DNA from: Umbilicaria muhlenbergii
Lineage: Eukaryota > Ascomycota > Lecanoromycetes > Umbilicariales > Umbilicariaceae
Assembly (NCBI GenBank): GCA_000611775.1
Contig: KK106982.1
Span: forward strand, 4,906,996 to 4,970,995
Length of the DNA stretch: 64,000 nucleotides
Reading direction: 5' to 3'
This document shows positions 43,004 through 55,439 of the stretch, in pieces (the stretch's first letter is position 1; each line of letters begins with the position of its first letter). Made by a program: the position numbers and the translations under genes. Under the pieces are notes generated by a model, which was given only the letters and a program-made list of their open reading frames with translations, was not told the DNA's origin and searched no databases.

Positions 43004-44912
43004 TCATCTCTCTTCAGACAGAAGGACTGTCCTCAGTTTTCATCTTAAATCTTTCATCTTGACTGCCTCTTGAATTTCTTATTGACTGTCATGTTGTTTT
43101 CATTCATCAGGTTCAGCTCTTCACCTGACTTGTAAGCATTTAATCAAACTTGTAACCTCCTCAGTGGCTCTGTCCTGTTCAGATAAGCGTCATGATAGTT
43201 CTTTACCTTTTGAGGTGACTCTATAAAGTCAACAGTGTCATATCATTCTGAGTCTGAATCATATCCCTCTCAAATCACTTGATATTGCAGGATGTTGTTG
43301 TGAATTCAGCTTGCTAAAATTTTTTTCACTGCATACTCAGGTTGATCATTAACTTCAGTTGATGACTTCAGATCCTGAATTTGGTTCAGCATTAAGTCAT
43401 TCATCACTTTCCTTAAATGATCAGCATGAAAGATGTTGTTCATCTTCATGTGTTCAGATAACTTCAGAACATAAGAGTGACTTTTCATGCTGAGAATCTG
43501 ATAAAGACCTGCTGCTTGATGATTCAACTTTAAGTTAAGTCTTTCAGTGGTTTAATCCTTTTGAGTAATGTAAACTCAGTCTTCAATGAAGAAGTTTAAT
43601 TTTCTTCAGTGCTTATTTGCTTGATCTGTCATCTTATTTTAAGCCTATTTTAGGTTTTTTTGCAAAGAGAACTGATGATGCATAAGGAGTGTCACTAGAG
43701 ATTATAAAACTCTTTTTCAGATGATCTTCAAGATAAGCCTTGATTAACTTCAACTGCTTCAATGACATGCTGTATAAGAAGCTTGAGGTCAGGTTGTTCT
43801 CATCTTTCAAGATGATATCATGATTCACTTTTTCCTTATGTAGAGGCAGCTGATCTGATGCTGCCTTGCTGAAAACCTTCACAAACTCTTAATACTGATG
43901 AGGTAATTTTTTCTTTATTCTCTGATTCAGCTCTGCTTCATTCTGCAGCAGCAGACAGAAGTTCCTTCAGTTTTTTATCAAGTGATTAACCTCATGAATG
44001 TTAATGATGTTGATAATCACCTCTTTTCTTCTGACATTGCATAAGAAGTTTCCTGCTTTCAGAAGTGCAATATTCACTTCTTGATAAAGAGAAGGTTTAT
44101 GATTCTTTGATTTCTTTATGTTTAATGAACTTTAACCTTCATTCATTGAACTACTCATGTGATTCATTAAATCTTTCTTTTTGTTCAGCTGTTTTTTTAT
44201 CTCATTAATGTTAATCTGCTGTTGAACTCTTCATGTCTTTGGTTGTGCCTGTAGCTGCAGGATTGACTTTTTAAGCAGTTTAATGAATCTTTCCTTTCAC
44301 TCATTTAACCTTGTTGAATGTTCAGTATCCTCAGGGTCAGCTTTGTTAAGTATCATTATGAGTTCATCTCTTTCTGCTCTTCTTAAAATCTGAGTCAGTG
44401 TTGCTGCCTCATGCAGATTATCATGTTGTTCAGCATCTGCTTAATGTTCTGATTTGACTTCTGATAGCTGTAATTCTCATCTTGATATCATTAAGTTCTT
44501 GCTTGCCTGATATTGAGCCTCCTCAGGTCAAATCAGCTTTTGATTGAAGTAATCAATCAATATCTTAATCTTCTTAAATCATTTTCTCTCAATCAGAACA
44601 TCATGTCTGCTGATGTTATAAAATAAGAAGTGAGTAGAGATTCATCTTCTGTCAATCATTAAGTTTGCTGTAAATACTCTGAAGATCATCTCAGCATTTT
44701 AATTATTGTATCTTATTAAAAAAACTGACCTCTGTGCTGTTCTGATGTATAACTGCAGATGCTTTTTCACAAATTTAAAGTGCTTCTTGTGAATGAAAGT
44801 TTTTTCAGCAGCATCAGTGTTTAGCAGAGCTGCTACTCTTATGATTAAGCTGTTGACTGCAAGTTGACAATCTCAAGTCAATGATGACTCTTTTAAAATG
44901 TTTAACATCTTC

Positions 44913-44920
44913 ATCTTGCT
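44913..44920. repeat. hAT target-site duplication, left copy (ATCTTGCT)
   Basis: An 8-bp word matched exactly at 51935-51942. The C1 sequence at the same place (about 8828) is uninterrupted, which shows the empty site. Confidence 0.9.
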
Positions 44921-45649
44921 TAGAGTGACTGCTGAGACGGGAGTCTCAGTCTGAGATGAAGGAATGAGATGAGATGAGACAGAATACAGGACTAAGCAGT
45001 AATCCTGTTCTTCAGAATCAGAACAGGAGTTTTGTCTCATTTCATTTTTTAATCTTGATGAGATCCTGATCACATGACTTCTTATATATGACTGTCAGTG
45101 GTTTTGAGACACGGGGAAAGGTTAATTCAGACACAGAGAAATTAATACATTGTAATGATTCATTATAATGATCTAGATTATCAATTTATTCTAATGACTT
45201 TAATCTTGATCATTTTCTTTGCAGCTGCCTCTTGTTACTCAAGACATATTCTAGTCTTGCTCTTGAGCTGATTGATGTTTTCATGAGTATGAAACTTAAG
45301 CTTAATGATTTATCATGCTGACCTGATAGAATTGATAACTCATTTAAATCTTCAGTTACATCAGCAACATCCTGTAGCTTTGCAGGTGACCTCATATGAT
45401 TAACATTAAATGATAATGCTCAAGGCTCATTATCATTCAGCTCATTCACATCATAATCTTCATTCATTAACTCCTCAGTATCACTGCTTCTTATTAGACA
45501 GACAACAATATATTACATTAAGTAACATACTTGAATACTTCAATGACTCATTGTTTTTCTCTTTTATGTGCTGACATATATCCTCCTTCACCTTTATGTC
45601 TGACATTTGATGCATCACCTTCATCATGTGATAAAGAAATATGAGTAAG

Positions 45650-47950
45650 ACTCTCAGCATCATTCATATTCACTCACTGTGTTTCACATTCTTGATCATT
45701 AGAGGTGAGTTCATCTGCAGGAGAAGATTAATCATTTTAAGTATGTTGTTGTATATCTTCCTCATGTGCCACCATATCATGAATGTGAGTAGTGTCACAT
45801 TTTTTGATTATCATGATGTCAGATATAATGTCTGAGTTGAAGTGACTTCAATGATAAGTAACAACATCTCATGTCATGAAAAAAAGGTGCTTCACACTTA
45901 CATCAACTACTGATATAACAAGAATGTTCTTTGTCATTTGTGATAAGACAAGCTTACTGATCTTCAGCTGTTTTCATAAAAGAAGAATGTTGTCATGCTT
46001 TAATTTCATTTCATTAAAGTATCATGAGGCTTTACTCTCTTGATAATTTTTCATCTTCCTTGATCTCTGAAGCGTGGAACTTCTTGAAGTTAAAAGAACA
46101 CTCTTCAGGGATTTCTTCATCATGTTAAAAGGCACAAGCTGTCATGATTAATACTGAATAATCTTCTGTTCTTGATAATTCACTTCATAATAATCAAGGA
46201 ACTCTTGTTGATACTGTGCATAATCCTCAGAGTCTCATTCAGCGCCCTGCAGTAGCAATTAAAATATAAAGTTTAAAATCATTACAATAAATCATTAGAA
46301 ATGTTGACTGCTTACCTTGAACAAATCAAGCTTCAAAGAAGAATCAAGGCAGGCACTTACTACAAACAACACTCTTCACTCATCATATGTTCATTCATAA
46401 TATGTTGAAAGTTTATTCTTTGCTGCTGCAATAACCTCCTGCAGATTAGAAGATCATTTGAGTTTAAACTTTTAAACTTCTTAACACTGTCACTCTAAAT
46501 GATTGAAAAGTTCATTATAAGTGATTTAAGTATAAAAAATGTTTAACTGATCTGTCACTCTCAGCGTATCTGTAAAGCTTTAAAATGATTATAATAAACT
46601 GATGAGATACCTGACCTGCTCTCATTCAGTGTCACTGAGTATTAAAACTCATCATATAAACTTCTTCTCTTTTATTCATTCTCTGCTGAACTCATGCATC
46701 TCATATGCTCATTTAAGCATGAAGAAAGAACTGTTTCATCTTGTCACAACATCTTCAATTAAGCCCTTCTGCAAATAAGGGGGTGTATTAATCTGAGTGA
46801 CTTTATATCTCTCAAGTCATTGTGATGATGAGTTGACTGCAATGACTAATGCACAGACCTGAACGCAAAGTTAATTAATCATTATAATATATCATTAGAA
46901 AGACTAAAATCTTTTGAAATGTAAAATTAAAATCTTTATCCTTCTCATGCACCTCTTTTAATTAACTTAATGTTTTGACATCTCACTTCTTTGTAAGATT
47001 GTCATTGTTTGCTGACACTTTAAGTGAGTGTAGTAGTGCGTTGATGAATAGTTGAAAGACATGTGTCATGCAGTTGACAGTATTCATGTCTTCATTTCAA
47101 TGAATCTTTCATTTTCATAGCAGTGATGACAGCTAAATGAGCAGTGTTTAAATATTCAAGACATTGTCAGCTGTGATAGCAAGGAGCTTATTCAGAAGCT
47201 TATAATTATTAAGCATATTTATTATCACCTTTGCCAAATTCTTCCCTGTATGCTTGTCATGAAGAGGAGAGAACTCAAGAAGAACCTCATGATAATCTTA
47301 ATTATCATTTATGAAGTAATCAGTGATGTCAAGAAATGCAAGGTTATTTGAACTTGTTCAACAATTAAGTGCTAAAGAAACTTTCATTCTTGATTTTAAT
47401 TTTATTAACACAGTTTATTTAAGTTCCTTTGCTCACTTCTTGACAAGGTGAGAGAACTTGGTTTAATGAGAAGTCTCAACATCAAATTGAAGAAAATTAA
47501 GTAAGCATAAAAATGAGAGATGTTCAACTGAGTGAAAAGACATGTTGAGGTTAAGAATTATTTAAATAAGTTGATTCTTAAAGGCTTCTTGTGTAAATCT
47601 GCTAGACGTGAGCTTAATGAGTACAGAGTTAATGAACTGAAGTCATATCATTAAAATAGATTGTTATAACAGGAGTTTAAAGAAGTCAGTATCTTTTGTA
47701 ATAACTGAGAAAAAGTCATCTGCTCTGTTTGATTCACCTCACAATTTTTGATGTTGATATGCTTTGTCATATCATTGCTCCCTGCATCATTAAAATTAAG
47801 ATGTTTCAGAACTTTCTCACAAAGTTTACAGATAACAGCAGGCTTCTCAGTTTTAATTTCAGCAGCCTCATGATATGATGCTCACAGCAGAGCCTTTCAT
47901 TTTATATTATTTCAAAGAACAGGCTTATGTCTTGTCATCTTCTTGAGTGT
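45650..47950 (-). pseudogene. hAT transposase with N-terminal BED zinc finger, decayed
   Basis: Read on the - strand, 47735-47900 gives a BED-type finger (VICKLCEKVLK, then H and C in NDMTKHINIKNC). About 47160-47340 holds the hAT core phrase LDITDYFI, then HDKHTGKNLAKVIINMLNNY and LLAITADN. About 47040-47100 has NTVNCMTHVFQLFINALLHS. About 46717-46758 has EDVVTR followed by NSSFFML, the TRWNS block with its Trp codon now a stop. About 45780-45970 matches the C-terminal dimerisation domain (ILVISVVDVSVKHLF, SHFNSDIISDIMI). Introns are likely at about 46246-46315 and 46863-46910. Such enzymes cut and rejoin DNA at the 18-bp ends. Several in-frame stops make it non-functional. Confidence 0.85.
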
Positions 47951-48189
47951 ATCTTGACCTCATTTCATTCTCTTTCATCACTCTTCAAATTCATCATGAA
48001 ACTTAAAAGTTTAAAGAACATAATCATCCTTTCTGTTTTGTAAAAGACATGCTGATGATGATTCAGTGATAAATAAGAGATCAACAGAAGTTGACTGTGA
48101 AGCTGAAGCTCAATCATCTTCAGAAGTAAGAGTAAATTATGAGGAAGTCATGCTGTCTTAAGATGAATAATGATGTTAAAGGGTATGAG

Positions 48190-50673
48190 AATACAGAAAG
48201 CCCTTTGAATCAAACAGTTTATTTGAGCAGAGCTTGAATTTTAATCACTTAATTAAGAAAGTACATACATACATTGAATTAAAGACTAAACTATTCTGAA
48301 AAAGAAATTTTAATGCATGATTATGATGATTAATGTCACCTGACAAATCACACACTCTGATTGATGTGTTTAATGTTTGTTGAACAGTCAACATCCTTGA
48401 AAACATCCTTGAAAATGTTTGATCATGTCAGATAATGCTTGTTTACTTCATTGAGATTCAGACTTTGATTCATTCATCTATTCATCATCTGCATCATCTG
48501 CATCACCTGCATTTGCATCACCTGCATTTGCATCATCTGCATTTGCATTATTTATGTTTTCATCTTTAAACTCTTCCTCCTCATATCCTGTAGCTACCTC
48601 ACTCTCTATGAGGATATTATTGTCATCAGGGGCAAAAACAGCTTCAAGATGCTGAATAAAGTCATCAGAGCCTGTAGTAATTGAGGGAAGATTAACATCA
48701 TCCTCATTATCATCCTCTTTAAGAATTTCAGATGACTCTTTGATTATGAAATTAAACATTTAATCATCTTCATTAAAGTATGTTTTAAATGACTCTGTAT
48801 GAACTATCTTGATCTGTGAATCAGTAATCATGATAACATCCTTCTTCAGAACCTGTTGTCTCAGAGCAGAGTACAGATAGTTAAACAGTTTTGAATAAAT
48901 ATCATTATAATGAAATGTTAAAATGTAAAAAACCTGCACTGATCACTCTTCTGAATCTTTAATATGATCTGAGTTCATAATCTGCTTATGAAACTTTCTC
49001 ATGATGTTGACTGAGTCAGGATCTTCAGCATCAATTAAATCTTGAAAATCATTAATTTAAGTAATTCATTTATAACACTTCACAGAGATGACAAGTCTGA
49101 TGATGACAACTCTTTGATATTCATCATCTTTTGAATCCTGCATAGTCATAAGCATACATGATCATTACAAGAGATCATTATAATATTATCATAAAGACAA
49201 ATGACTCAGATGCAGATTCAGAGTCTTTTTTTAATATTCTTATTATGTTAAAAGCTTCTGCATGCTCCTGTTTCTTTTTCTGTTGTACTTAATATGCTGC
49301 ATGACGCAGCTGTTGCTCATGTTGCACTTAAAAGAATTTAATTATCATTTGTGAGTTGATTCCTGAATTGAAATGTAGAAAGAAAAACACATATCACTTT
49401 CATCAATATTGAAATGATTTGTCAGAACATTTAGTTGATATTCTTCTTTCATAACCTTTTGATCTGCTGAGTTGACGGCTTTTCATGCATCAGTAAGCCT
49501 TAGCTTTTTCTTAGCTTGAAAGATAGCAGCTTGATCATGATCATCAGTTTTTAATAACACTGCCTCATCAGGATCCTGTATTCTCTCATGATGAAGTTCA
49601 TGCACTTCAATCACCTTCTGAGATGTTGTGAAGTATGAGTCAGCAGTCTTTTTCAGGCTGAAATTTGTGAAGTTTTTCATAAGCACTTTAATGATTCTGT
49701 TTACTGCCTTGACAGCTGCTTTTGCTTAAATCTTTTCTGCTATGAACATTTCTTCTTCACCTTCAACATAAATTGAAGGTTTTGTATATCTATTAAGTGT
49801 TTTGAGTGCTAAGAATGCATGATTAGTGATTTTATTACAATAGATTGTTAGAATACCTACTGATCTTTATTTGAAAACTGTTAATATCACTATTCACTTC
49901 AGTCTTTATTCACTTTGTGCGCGGCTTATGAGGGGTAGTAAGAACAGAGAGTGTTGAAAAGTTTAAAATTTACTCAGTTTACACATTCTCATCATTAGAT
50001 TGCGCTGTATGAGCGTGTTTTTTCATTGATGATGTCATCATGAAGGACTCACTCACTTGCACTGATGATGAAGAGTGTTCAGCAAGGCCTGTCATGTATA
50101 ATCAATCAATAAATTGTTATAATAAATTGTTATAATAAGAAATGTTAAAACTCATTAATGAAGACTTCTGCAATAAGTATGACATATGAGTTGCTCACAT
50201 GAGCTGATGATGAGGGGAGTTTTACAAGACTTATCATGTATAATCAGTCAATAAATCATTATAACATCTTGTTAGAATAAAAAATGTTAAAACTCACTAA
50301 TGAAGGCTTCTGCAACAGAGGTAACTTAAGAATCACTCTCTTGAGTTGATGATGATAAGAGTTCTACAAGGCCTGTTATGTATAATTAGTCAACAGATTG
50401 TTATATCATCTTTTTTAATAAAAGAAGTTAAGACTCACTAATGAAGTCTTCTTCAACAAGGGTAACACTCATTCTTAGTAGAGCAGACTGAGCTGACTGA
50501 TCATAAGAATTAAAATATGCATCATGAGAGTCATGAGGCTCACCACAAAGGTCAGGACATGAAATATCATGAGTAAAAAATGTGTATTCAATGACTGATG
50601 AGAAGACTGCTTGCAGGTCAAGAGATAAATGATTTATAAAAATGTGAATAATTGAGATGAGAGGTGACAGCAA
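48190..50673 (-). pseudogene. Unrecognised multi-exon gene of the hAT element
   Basis: A - strand gene probably starts at 50673 (81 open codons to 50428, ending near a GTGAGT donor). Tandem exon-intron units follow at about 50310-50440, 50165-50300 and 50030-50150. Open parts downstream are 49483-49686 (FTTSQKVIEVHELHHERIQD) and 48478-48759, an acidic stretch with an NADDANAGDANAGD repeat encoded by CATCTGCATTTG words. I recognise no domain. It is divergent from the H3-like gene, with about 220 bp between the two starts that may hold a shared promoter. Stops are present in several places. It could be an accessory hAT protein or captured host sequence. Confidence 0.5.
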
Positions 50674-50891
50674 TTTAAGATGAGAATGATGTCAACATGA
50701 TCTTATTAATGCACACTTTAGGCTTAATGTAAAAGCATGTAACACTGAAATAACATCATGACCTTCACTCACTTTATGATCTCAACATCATTCACTATCA
50801 CAATAAATCATCAGTTCATAACATGTAGATTTTGTATTCTCAACATAATGATCATTTCTAACATTTCAGAATGACATGAATGAAATAAATA
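50674..50891. promoter_or_regulatory. Candidate bidirectional promoter between the - strand gene and the H3-like gene
   Basis: This 218-bp AT-rich gap separates two divergent starts (50673 on -, 50892 on +). The short spacing suggests a shared promoter, an arrangement familiar for histone genes. No specific element can be named, and the position is inferred from the gene starts alone. Confidence 0.3.
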
Positions 50892-51201
50892 ATGATCAAA
50901 GCACCCTGAAAAGCCTCAGTAACTGATGAAAAGACTGCTGCAAAAGCAAAAGCAAAAGCTGATTCAGCTCATGCTGCACATGCCAAGGTCAAGGCCAAGA
51001 TTAATTCTAAAAAGAAGAAAATCAACACACAAGTCACCTTCATCACTGCTGTCATTCTCATCATCAATTATCAACAGCGCCTGGCACAGTATCATATTAA
51101 TATTCATGCATGAAGAACGGCTGATGCTGCTGCAAGAGCAGCAGGAACTTCACATTTAGCTGAAAAGCTTACAATGTTTAAACCTGCTGCACGGCCTGAT
51201 G

Positions 51202-51260
51202 GTAAGTTATATCAGCATAGTAACAATCAATTTTAATGATCTATCTCAATGATTATACAG
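51202..51260 (+). other. Intron 1 of the H3-like gene
   Basis: A 59-bp intron, GTAAGT...TACAG, falls between RPD and ALHEIK, i.e. just before the alphaN helix. Joining the exons keeps frame. It ends in ATGATTATACAG, resembling other introns of this transposon. Confidence 0.8.
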
Positions 51261-51455
51261 TTCAAGCGCTGCATGAAATCAAATGATATCAAAAGTCAAC
51301 AGATCTCCTCATTTCAAAAGCCTCATTCAGTAGAATTGTTCATGAGATCATGACTGAAATGATGCTTACTGAGGACATGAGCTTTCAGATACAACATATC
51401 ATGTTGAAGACACTGCAAGAAGCAGCAGAAGAATACATGATATCTTTTTTTAAAA

Positions 51456-51517
51456 GTGAGAGTTTTAATCTCCTATTTCTAATGTTATACTAATTCAACT
51501 TTTATCTAAACACTCAA
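51456..51517 (+). other. Intron 2 of the H3-like gene, acceptor decayed
   Basis: It begins GTGAGAG, with a likely branch site ACTAAT near 51490, and is followed by LAVIHDK in exon 3. The expected AG acceptor reads AA here, consistent with a transition. The frame across this intron is off by one base, possibly because of the T-run at 51444-51451. Confidence 0.6.
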
Positions 51518-51613
51518 CTTGCCGTCATTCATGACAAGTGTATCACAATACAGTCAAAGGATTTGACACTTGTGAAGTGATATATGAGTGAATTTGGTGC
51601 TTTGGTTCAGTAG

Positions 51614-51934
51614 ATACAGTTAGTCATGCACAGATTATATTAAGACTCAATTCAACAGTTTTAATAATCAAATGTAATAATTTATTATAAAATATAAACT
51701 GATGACTCCTTAAATGATGTTTATCTTAATGTAATATTGTATCAAGCCTCTTTAGGTTAAGCCTAAGTTACTGTCATCATGACATATTAATGATGCAGAG
51801 ACAACAGGACTATTCCTGTCTCATTTTATTAACAAAATTAAGATGAAACTGAAAAATCATCACTGAGATGAGATGAGACTGAGATGAGATAAAGATTAGA
51901 AATTTAATCCTGTTCTGTCTCAACAGTTATTATA
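51614..51934 (+). other. hAT right subterminal region and terminal inverted repeat
   Basis: No gene is visible. GATGAGATGAGACTGAGATG words at about 51855-51885 mirror the left end at 44960-44980. The terminal repeat is 51917-51934, followed by the target duplication at 51935-51942. Confidence 0.75.
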
Positions 51935-51942
51935 ATCTTGCT

Positions 51943-53593
51943 TATCTTTGCTCCTTTCATTGACTTTAGGGTGAAGACTTCACTTAAAGTAATTCATTTT
52001 CTGAATCTGAATGATCAGAGTTTACAGCCTTTGCCTCAGCTTTCTTTAACTTATCAGGATAATCCCTCACCAGGTGTTCTTTCTTATTGCAGATATAATA
52101 AGTTATGTTAATTAACATTGACTTGATTGCTTCTCATGCAACAATGATGATTGTGATGATTATCTTTTTTTTAAATTTAAAAGCTGACTGCTTCCTCTGC
52201 AGCTTTTGTTAATTTTTTCATTTCTTGATCTTTTCATCTGCTTTAACAAGACCTCTCATGAACTGTTGAGCCTTCTTACAGTAAATGTCAAATGACATGT
52301 CCTCATCAATGATATAAATTTTCATTTGAACTTGAAGTGAGTTGTATAACTTGTCATGAATTTCCTCTTTTCACTGATCTGTTGACATCTTCACTGAGTT
52401 CATCAGTCATAGAAACTCTGACTGAAACATGTTAAAGTTCTTAAGATAAGATATCTTGAACTTCTTCAGCTGCTCTCATGTCTTCAAGTGATGATCTGAA
52501 TTCTTGAAGATGTTCTTCAAGCATTGAATAATCTTTTTAATATAAATCTCTCTTCCTGACTGAGCCTTCAGTCATGAATAAAGGTGTTCAGCAGCCTTGC
52601 TGTTAACTTGCATCTTGATGTAAGTCACTTTGACATGTTCAGCTTCATCTTGATCTGACTGATTAAATCAATCATCATTGATTAATAACTTGCTCTTCAT
52701 CTGATCATCTCATACCTGGAACATGAGCTTAAGATCATCATTCAGAATTGATGAATTTGAAAACTTCACTGAATACTTCTTCATTGCATCACTCATGTTC
52801 AATTTAAGTGTGCTTTCTCTTGACTGCTCTGCTTCAGAGTTGTTAAGTCATCAAGTTAACTTCAACATATTCTGTTTCAATTCTTGTTTCTCAGTTGTTA
52901 ACTTCTTTATTTAAGAGTTTTTCTGATTATTTTGATTTTCTAGATTCTGTATCTGTGCCTTGTATAAATCTCTCTGATTTAGTGCTTTCAACACTAAATG
53001 ACAGATGTTCTCTGAATCATGTGCTGCTCATCACTGTAAGTTTTCAGAGGTCATCTCACTTTAAAGGTTCATCTTCATGATGTTTATTGTTTTTAATCTC
53101 TCATGATCATCTGACTGTTCTTCAGTCAAGGATAATCTTTCAGATTAAGAAGAGATTCCTCTCTTCTGATGTGATTTAATCATGATTTCTTCAGTGCTTC
53201 AGACACCTACTCTTAATGCTGAGATTATTCAGTTCAGAACCTTGCTTTTTCAACTGCCTCTACTGCAATTGTCTGTGTTTACAAATAAGTCTTCAAGGGT
53301 GCTTACATGTTGCAGGACTTTTTATTTGTTGTGACTGCTTCTCACAGTTATCTGTCATTATGATAAAGTACTTTCTGATCATTTGTTGCCTACTTCTCAC
53401 AAGACTTGAGAATTGATTGTTAATAATTAATTAATAAATTTAAGATGTTCTAGAAACCTCCTGATCACTTGATAAACTGTGAGTTGAGATGTTTAATGAT
53501 GTTGAGGAAGAATTTTCTCATCAACACATGAGTTTATTTCAGCTGATATTCTGTCACCTTCAGAGGTCAAAAAGAGTGTTGGTACTTTTCTAA
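51943..53593 (-). pseudogene. C3 gag fossil
   Basis: It resumes the C1-like sequence at the hAT target site and runs to the 5' LTR. The knuckle context CNKKEHLVRDY lies near 52070-52110. The + strand open runs at 52723-52914, 52895-53080 and 53216-53416 are antisense shadows, as is the matching one at 9781-9966 in C1. Confidence 0.7.
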
Positions 53594-54594: not shown

Positions 54595-54815
54595 ATTACT
54601 GTCATGATTATTACTGTAGCCCTCTCAGGTGTTTCTGTAGTTATCATCATGTTAAGCATTTTCATAATTGCCTTCATGTTAAGTATTGCTGTAATTGCCT
54701 TTGTATTAAGTGTTGTCATAATTGCCTCTGTATTAAATGTTGTCATAATTGCTTTTATATTAAGTGTTGTCATAATTGCCTCTGTATTAGGTGTTGCCTC
54801 TGTATTAAGCCTGAT
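54595..54815. repeat. Minisatellite of 27-30 bp units in B3
   Basis: About seven units of GTTGTCATAATTGCCTCTGTATTAAGT. All three + frames and one - frame stay open (54562-54897, 54579-54848, 54582-54818), an effect of the repeat. On the - strand it gives an NTEAIMTT-type peptide repeat, analogous to the arrays of B1 and B2 but of different sequence. Confidence 0.85.
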
Positions 54816-55229
54816 CAAGTTATTTTTATTCTTAATAAAGGTAGTTAATCCCTGTTGTACTCATCATACTGAATCATCATTAAACTGTTCAGTATGAATA
54901 ATATGTTTAAGTTGTTTAATAAATATCCTTGTATAAGCTGTTATCTCACCATCAATTGATGTGTGAGTAGACATGAGTTGAAGTGCTTTAATAATGTCAG
55001 CAGAAGCACCCTCATCAAATTAAAGATTAATGAAATCATTATTAACTGTGTCTTTAATGTTCATAACTGCAGAGCTTGCTGAGTTATTTTTAATTAAATG
55101 ACACTGAGACTCTGCATACCTGACCTCATTCATAAATCATAATTGATTAATTCATATTGTCATGACTTGCTTCTTAAGCAGATAAGTGCTGCTGTTGCTG
55201 CTTTATGCATGTTTAAGTGACATCATCAA

Positions 55230-55400
55230 TGACATGTTTCATATTAGCATTCATAGTTATGCTATTTTTCATACTGGCATTCATAATTATACCTTTCATA
55301 TTGACATTCATAGTTATGCCTTTCATATTGACATTTGTAATTATGCTTTTTATACTGACATCTGTAGTTATGCCTTCTGTATGTACAATGTTTATTTATC
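55230..55400. repeat. Minisatellite of about 25-bp units in B3
   Basis: Six to seven units of TTCATAGTTATGCCTTTCATATTGACA. The + strand open runs at 55186-55404 and 55217-55417 are repeat products. Together with 54595-54815 it sits where B1 and B2 carry the TSAV-type array. Confidence 0.85.
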
Positions 55401-55439
55401 ATAACAGTTGTACTTGATGCTGTGACTGCAGTGTCATTA

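Follow-up and report, generated by a model that had tools for sequence, protein, structure and literature searches.

The window analysed here, a 64-kb stretch of contig KK106982.1 of Umbilicaria muhlenbergii (assembly GCA_000611775.1), carries a diverged and broken histone H3-like (H3L) gene at 50892-51613 on the plus strand. This gene is probably part of a decayed hAT transposon, which we place at 44921-51934 and which is itself surrounded by retrotransposon remnants. All positions are those of the window.

A broken H3-like gene with introns

The gene encodes an H3-type histone in three exons comprising 609 nt or 202 codons (Table 1). Exon 2 matched the Pfam core histone family PF00125 with an E-value of 1.2e-10 and 42.1 bits, compared to a cut-off of 26.4, whereas exon 1, which encodes the N-terminal tail, matched no Pfam family over the cut-off. 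Comparison with the histones in the PDB yielded a best E-value of 5.7e-19 for the joined exons and of 4.1e-12 for exon 2 alone. These matches confirmed the H3 fold in three exons described in a previous sequence-only reading, the coordinates of which were correct. Calculated from the element's own triplet frequencies, a frame of 202 codons free of TAA and TAG has a probability of about 1.9e-4, a value qualified by the fact that the gene model had been picked for openness.

The gene was once real and its present copy is broken: it contains four in-frame TGA codons (codons 6, 74, 112 and 192), two of them at Arg positions of H3, and has lost its second splice acceptor. This broken state went unmentioned in the sequence-only reading. 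The role suggested there, an influence on chromatin at the element's own insertions, cannot hold for the copy in its present state, as its reading frames are broken. A retrocopy origin was ruled out by intron 1, which still has the form GTAAGT...ACAG. Reading of TGA as a sense codon was not favoured, considering the two TGA at Arg positions and the near absence of CpG from the window.

Class of the encoded histone

The encoded protein was compared with H3 and with centromeric H3 (CenH3). Scanning of prokaryote genome contigs with exon 2 gave 62 pattern matches and two loci, namely a canonical eukaryotic H3 gene (L001, 8001-8150) and an H3-like gene (L002, 8001-8069), on contigs labelled as bacterial metagenome-assembled genomes (TMED88; Desulfosporosinus SulCav). 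Both contigs are probably mis-binned, and both loci served as H3 rows in our comparisons. No confirmed relative was found in viral contigs scanned with exon 2 and with the hAT core, and none in plasmids scanned with the hAT core.

Identity of the fold amounted to 38/90 residues with L001, 39/93 with Cse4 and 32/91 with human CENP-A, the three proteins covered by the codon comparison. Canonical H3 was ruled out by the first of these values together with a tail differing from the ARTKQTARKS type. The sequence-only reading had pointed to a long Lys/Ala-rich tail and an altered C-terminus, and both were found: the tail of 103 codons is unlike that of L001, and about four residues are added at the C-terminus in comparison with H3. 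Loop 1, reported there as two residues longer than in H3, is indeed longer, but the extent depends on the alignment, with two additional residues according to HMMER, which assigns two more to alpha-2, and four according to our own alignment. A longer loop 1 also occurs in H3 variants other than CenH3.

The same reading had suggested an affinity to CENP-A, which would mean that a transposon captured the CenH3 of its host. The top PDB matches of the joined fold were indeed CenH3s (Cnp1 with 71.5 and Cse4 with 71.1 bits), but H3 reached 70.4 bits, leaving a margin of about 1 bit. Similarly, exon 2 alone scored 48.9 bits with one Cse4 chain, compared to 46.9 for the best H3 chain (7d69) and at most 44.1 for all others, while further Cse4 chains (43.5 and 43.2) ranked below some H3 chains; these values refer to the best 60 of 175 matches. 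The longer loop 1 is in line with a CenH3, yet the fold identities given above hardly separate Cse4 from H3 and are lowest for human CENP-A. An H3/CenH3 tree, which the sequence-only reading had proposed, was calculated with seven sequences; it placed the protein on the CenH3 side (70/92, unstarred) on a long branch of 1.25, and placement on the H3 side was not rejected (p-AU 0.257). A Trp at the start of alpha-2 is a defining mark of CenH3. Cnp1, Cse4 and human CENP-A all have this residue, but the present protein lacks it and shows Phe or Ile instead, according to the alignment. Furthermore, the H3L protein of Pyrenophora tritici-repentis, which also has tail insertions, was assigned to neither H3 nor CenH3 (PMC3538342). 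Because the PDB scores tie and the tree leaves the placement unstarred, the designation CENP-A-like is unsupported and was dropped as the main interpretation; judged from the sequence, a diverged H3 belonging to neither class fits better. Capture of the host CenH3 appears very improbable to us.

Mutational decay and earlier divergence

The observed/expected ratio of CpG in the window is 0.07, with values of 1.49 for CpA and 1.48 for TpG, and CC and GG are reduced to 0.49 and 0.47, respectively. Cytosine is scarce before G and C and less so before A or T, CpA and CpT having been preserved. This signature of C-to-T changes at CpG and CpC is opposite to the CpA-to-TpA changes of classical repeat-induced point mutation (RIP). 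CpG-to-TpG changes in some fungal transposons have been attributed to post-methylation deamination (PMC4352252).

The H3L fold differs from the H3 of L001 at 52 positions. Changes of the type C>T or G>A could account for 23 of these differences but not for the other 29. As these 29 differences lie beyond such changes, the comparison suggests that much of the divergence of the H3L protein predates the decay of this copy.

Delimitation of the probable hAT element

The proposed ends, listed with the other features in Table 1, are alike at 14 of 18 positions, and three of the four mismatches are transitions. They were the top pair among 660 with an exact target-site duplication (TSD) in their own search box, the TSD thus having been selected for by the search, and their terminal inverted repeat (TIR) score was 14.2. 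The motif GAGATGAGA has seven matches in the window, six on the plus and one on the minus strand, and five of them (44966, 44971, 51865, 51870 and 51881) are located within 70 bp of the element ends. The end-proximal matches, which were spotted after the ends had been chosen, overlap within each end and have the same orientation at both. Between the ends, a zf-BED match was obtained in the transposase remnant (47881-47651) with an E-value of 0.016, which falls short of the Pfam cut-off, and the stretch 47297-47148 is presumably the hAT transposase core, recognised by eye from its likeness to fungal hAT sequences. Within these limits, the H3L gene lies 321 bp from the proposed right end.

Table 1. 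Features of the probable hAT element, its H3L gene and the immediate flanks
Feature	Position	Strand	Remarks
Probable hAT element	44921-51934	.	7014 bp; ends TAGAGTGACTGCTGAGAC / TATAATAACTGTTGAGAC
Left 8-bp TSD	44913-44920	.	ATCTTGCT; exact copy at 51935-51942
Right 8-bp TSD	51935-51942	.	ATCTTGCT; exact copy of 44913-44920
Decayed transposase, probably of hAT type	45500-47881	-	BED-like zinc finger 47881-47651; presumed core 47297-47148; reading uncertain below ~46.9 kb
Remnant of further gene between transposase and histone	48478-50691	-	coding-like open stretches
Tandem array	50049-50460	.	period 142 bp, 2.9 copies; inside the hAT, a short way upstream of the H3L gene
H3L exon 1	50892-51201	+	103 codons and one base; long Lys/Ala-rich tail; two in-frame TGA, otherwise open
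H3L intron 1	51202-51260	+	GTAAGT...ACAG; 59 bp
H3L exon 2	51261-51455	+	alpha-N to alpha-2, longer loop 1; one in-frame TGA at an Arg position of H3
H3L intron 2	51456-51509	+	GTGAGA...CTAA; acceptor AG absent, now AA
H3L exon 3	51510-51613	+	alpha-3 and C-terminus; one in-frame TGA, then TAG stop
Gag-like zinc-knuckle remnant of LTR retrotransposon	51984-52133	-	open reading frame, motif by eye; right flank
Protease-like remnant	44699-44872	-	open reading frame, motif by eye; left flank, same strand as gag-like remnant

Several results weigh against a hAT element with these ends and a histone cargo. By combined score, the pair was third in its own box, where the best value was 21.3, and six control boxes gave 18.8-20.6. 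With the target pair excluded, its TIR score was equalled in 6 of 200 control boxes, some of these cases being repeats of one pair; by score alone, the element ends are not beyond chance. Long terminal repeats were unsupported, as a 180-bp alignment of the ends was matched or exceeded in 235 of 1974 random pairs. The reconstructed empty site, consisting of the flanks and one 8-bp copy, was uninformative: two of three frames are open over the joint and neither is the gag frame. No hAT-specific Pfam family, the dimerisation domain included, was found in the minus-strand remnants, and no second copy of H3 or hAT, which could serve for comparison, was found in the window. Finally, the H3-like copies described for a hAT of Pseudocercospora fijiensis are intronless (PMC6710886), while the present gene has introns. 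The location of the gene between hAT terminal repeats, stated in the sequence-only reading as directly visible, is therefore probable and not proven: an exact TSD and ends alike at most positions speak for it, yet the controls reach similar scores.

Published H3-carrying elements and interpretation of the locus

The sequence-only reading knew of no hAT with such cargo, but two published cases exist. In P. tritici-repentis, a hAT of about 5.6 kb was described which contains a transposase gene, an ORF in the centre and a gene for an H3-like protein; a shorter form of 2.3 kb also exists. The 26 H3L copies are highly similar, two have frameshifts, and ESTs are known (PMC3538342). The hAT of P. fijiensis measures about 9.5 kb, has an 8-bp TSD and carries either a single H3-like copy or two, 784 copies in all, which were inactivated by RIP with a CpA-to-TpA signature (PMC6710886). 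Amplification of H3 was reported for five more Mycosphaerellaceae, three of which have the hAT domain, i.e. six and four species including P. fijiensis (PMC6710886). In addition, the repeat R25 of Stagonospora nodorum has homology to histone H3, an informative match being a Pyrenophora histone H3 (PMC3017866). In the literature on captured centromeric histones, no hAT carrying a CenH3 was found among the matches listed, as judged from titles and abstract openings.

The present gene set of transposase remnants, middle-gene remnant and H3L gene is similar to that of the Pyrenophora element (PMC3538342), and the middle gene may correspond to the central ORF. Judged by the published description, the present element differs from the Pyrenophora hAT in its length of about 7.0 kb and its broken state. 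It shares the 8-bp TSD, the H3-like cargo and inactivation by C-to-T changes with the P. fijiensis hAT and, again compared by description, differs from it in having a single H3-like gene, in the presence of introns and in a mutation signature at CpG (and CpC) (PMC6710886). It resembles R25 as a repeat with histone H3 homology; unlike the present element, R25 was reassigned to the endogenous gene regions, has weak homology to DNA transposons and is not called a hAT in the source passages (PMC3017866).

In our view the locus is likely to be a hAT copy inactivated by mutation, similar in kind to the H3-carrying hATs described in Dothideomycetes. An ancestor of this hAT would have acquired an H3 gene that diverged in frame before C-to-T decay set in. 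This interpretation is based on the exact 8-bp TSD with hAT-like ends, the clusters of GAGATGAGA, the BED-like finger and the presumed transposase core, and furthermore on retrotransposon remnants of one strand outside both ends and on the similarity of the gene set to that of the Pyrenophora element. The histone part is indicated by the PF00125 and PDB matches, the 202-codon frame with its four TGA, the CpG ratio of 0.07 and the 29 of 52 differences beyond C>T or G>A. So understood, the element at 44921-51934 is a further member of the known H3-carrying hATs, from which it differs in introns, length and mutation signature.

The element contains the remnants of the transposase and of the middle gene on one strand and the intron-bearing H3L gene on the other. 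Its ancestor may have taken up the H3 gene as genomic DNA or inherited it from another such element; the gene would next have diverged as a coding gene, acquiring the long tail and the loop 1 insertion in frame. A copy of the element presumably inserted into sequence of a long terminal repeat (LTR) retrotransposon and would subsequently have been killed by cytosine-to-thymine mutation, chiefly at CpG. If the H3L protein ever functioned, its likeliest role, a matter of pure inference, would be that of a variant H3 incorporated in nucleosomes of the element or of the host.

The repeats of Pyrenophora, S. nodorum (R25), the Mycosphaerellaceae and Umbilicaria could also represent a single old transposon lineage, with the histone as a permanent component instead of the result of repeated accidental capture. 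This proposal concerns the origin of the cargo and is compatible with the explanation favoured here. The resemblance of the gene set to the Pyrenophora element (PMC3538342), a Pyrenophora histone H3 as informative match of R25 (PMC3017866) and the apparent in-frame divergence of the present H3L before its decay are all consistent with it. However, the Pyrenophora hAT was found to have no similarity to those of the Mycosphaerellaceae and was taken as an independent case, with the reservation that RIP may conceal a kinship (PMC6710886), and intron content varies. We regard a single lineage as possible, though rather unlikely. Less likely still is a stronger version, in which an old lineage of fungal hATs possesses an H3 variant as a permanent functional gene that predates the species where it was noticed and builds the transposon's own nucleosomes. 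Such a variant would have its particular tail and loop 1, and its nucleosomes could serve, for example, to keep copies accessible to the transposase or outside host silencing.

An unrelated H3 pseudogene of the host, located beside a decayed hAT or landed in it by chance, would agree with the single visible copy and the degraded terminal repeats with a score not above controls, but this explanation is highly doubtful in view of the position of the gene inside the proposed right end, the retrotransposon remnants outside both ends and the published hATs with H3-like cargo (PMC3538342, PMC6710886).

Under the favoured interpretation as an H3-carrying hAT, another case, with an intron-bearing and strongly diverged H3, joins the scattered fungal repeats that carry histone H3. 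The recurrence of this odd cargo raises the question whether it is an accident or a histone serving a transposon. One broken copy gives no answer.

Further remnants in the element and its flanks

The three minus-strand frames of 44001-50000 matched no Pfam family at E-values up to 1. The open minus-strand stretches of the middle gene are located at 48759-48478, 49866-49483 (two ORFs) and 50691-50428; the two of these stretches compared with Pfam gave no match over the cut-off. Since several donor-like sites, GTGAGT or GTGAGC, are present on its minus strand, the 142-bp array possibly consists of repeats of one exon and intron belonging to this gene.

Further out, Pfam domains of retrotransposons were identified on both sides: Integrase_H2C2 on the right (about 54527-54354, minus strand, E-value 1.1e-5) and SH3_Tf2-1 on the left (best stretch about 42636-42457, minus strand, E-value 6.7e-14). 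The order of the retrotransposon domains around the hAT suggests several nested elements, so that the two flanks need not belong to a single one. Neither a tRNA nor an Rfam match at the gathering score was found in the window. Two arrays of 27-bp repeats (54629-54790 and 55210-55401) are situated in open minus-strand stretches of the retrotransposon-rich flank.
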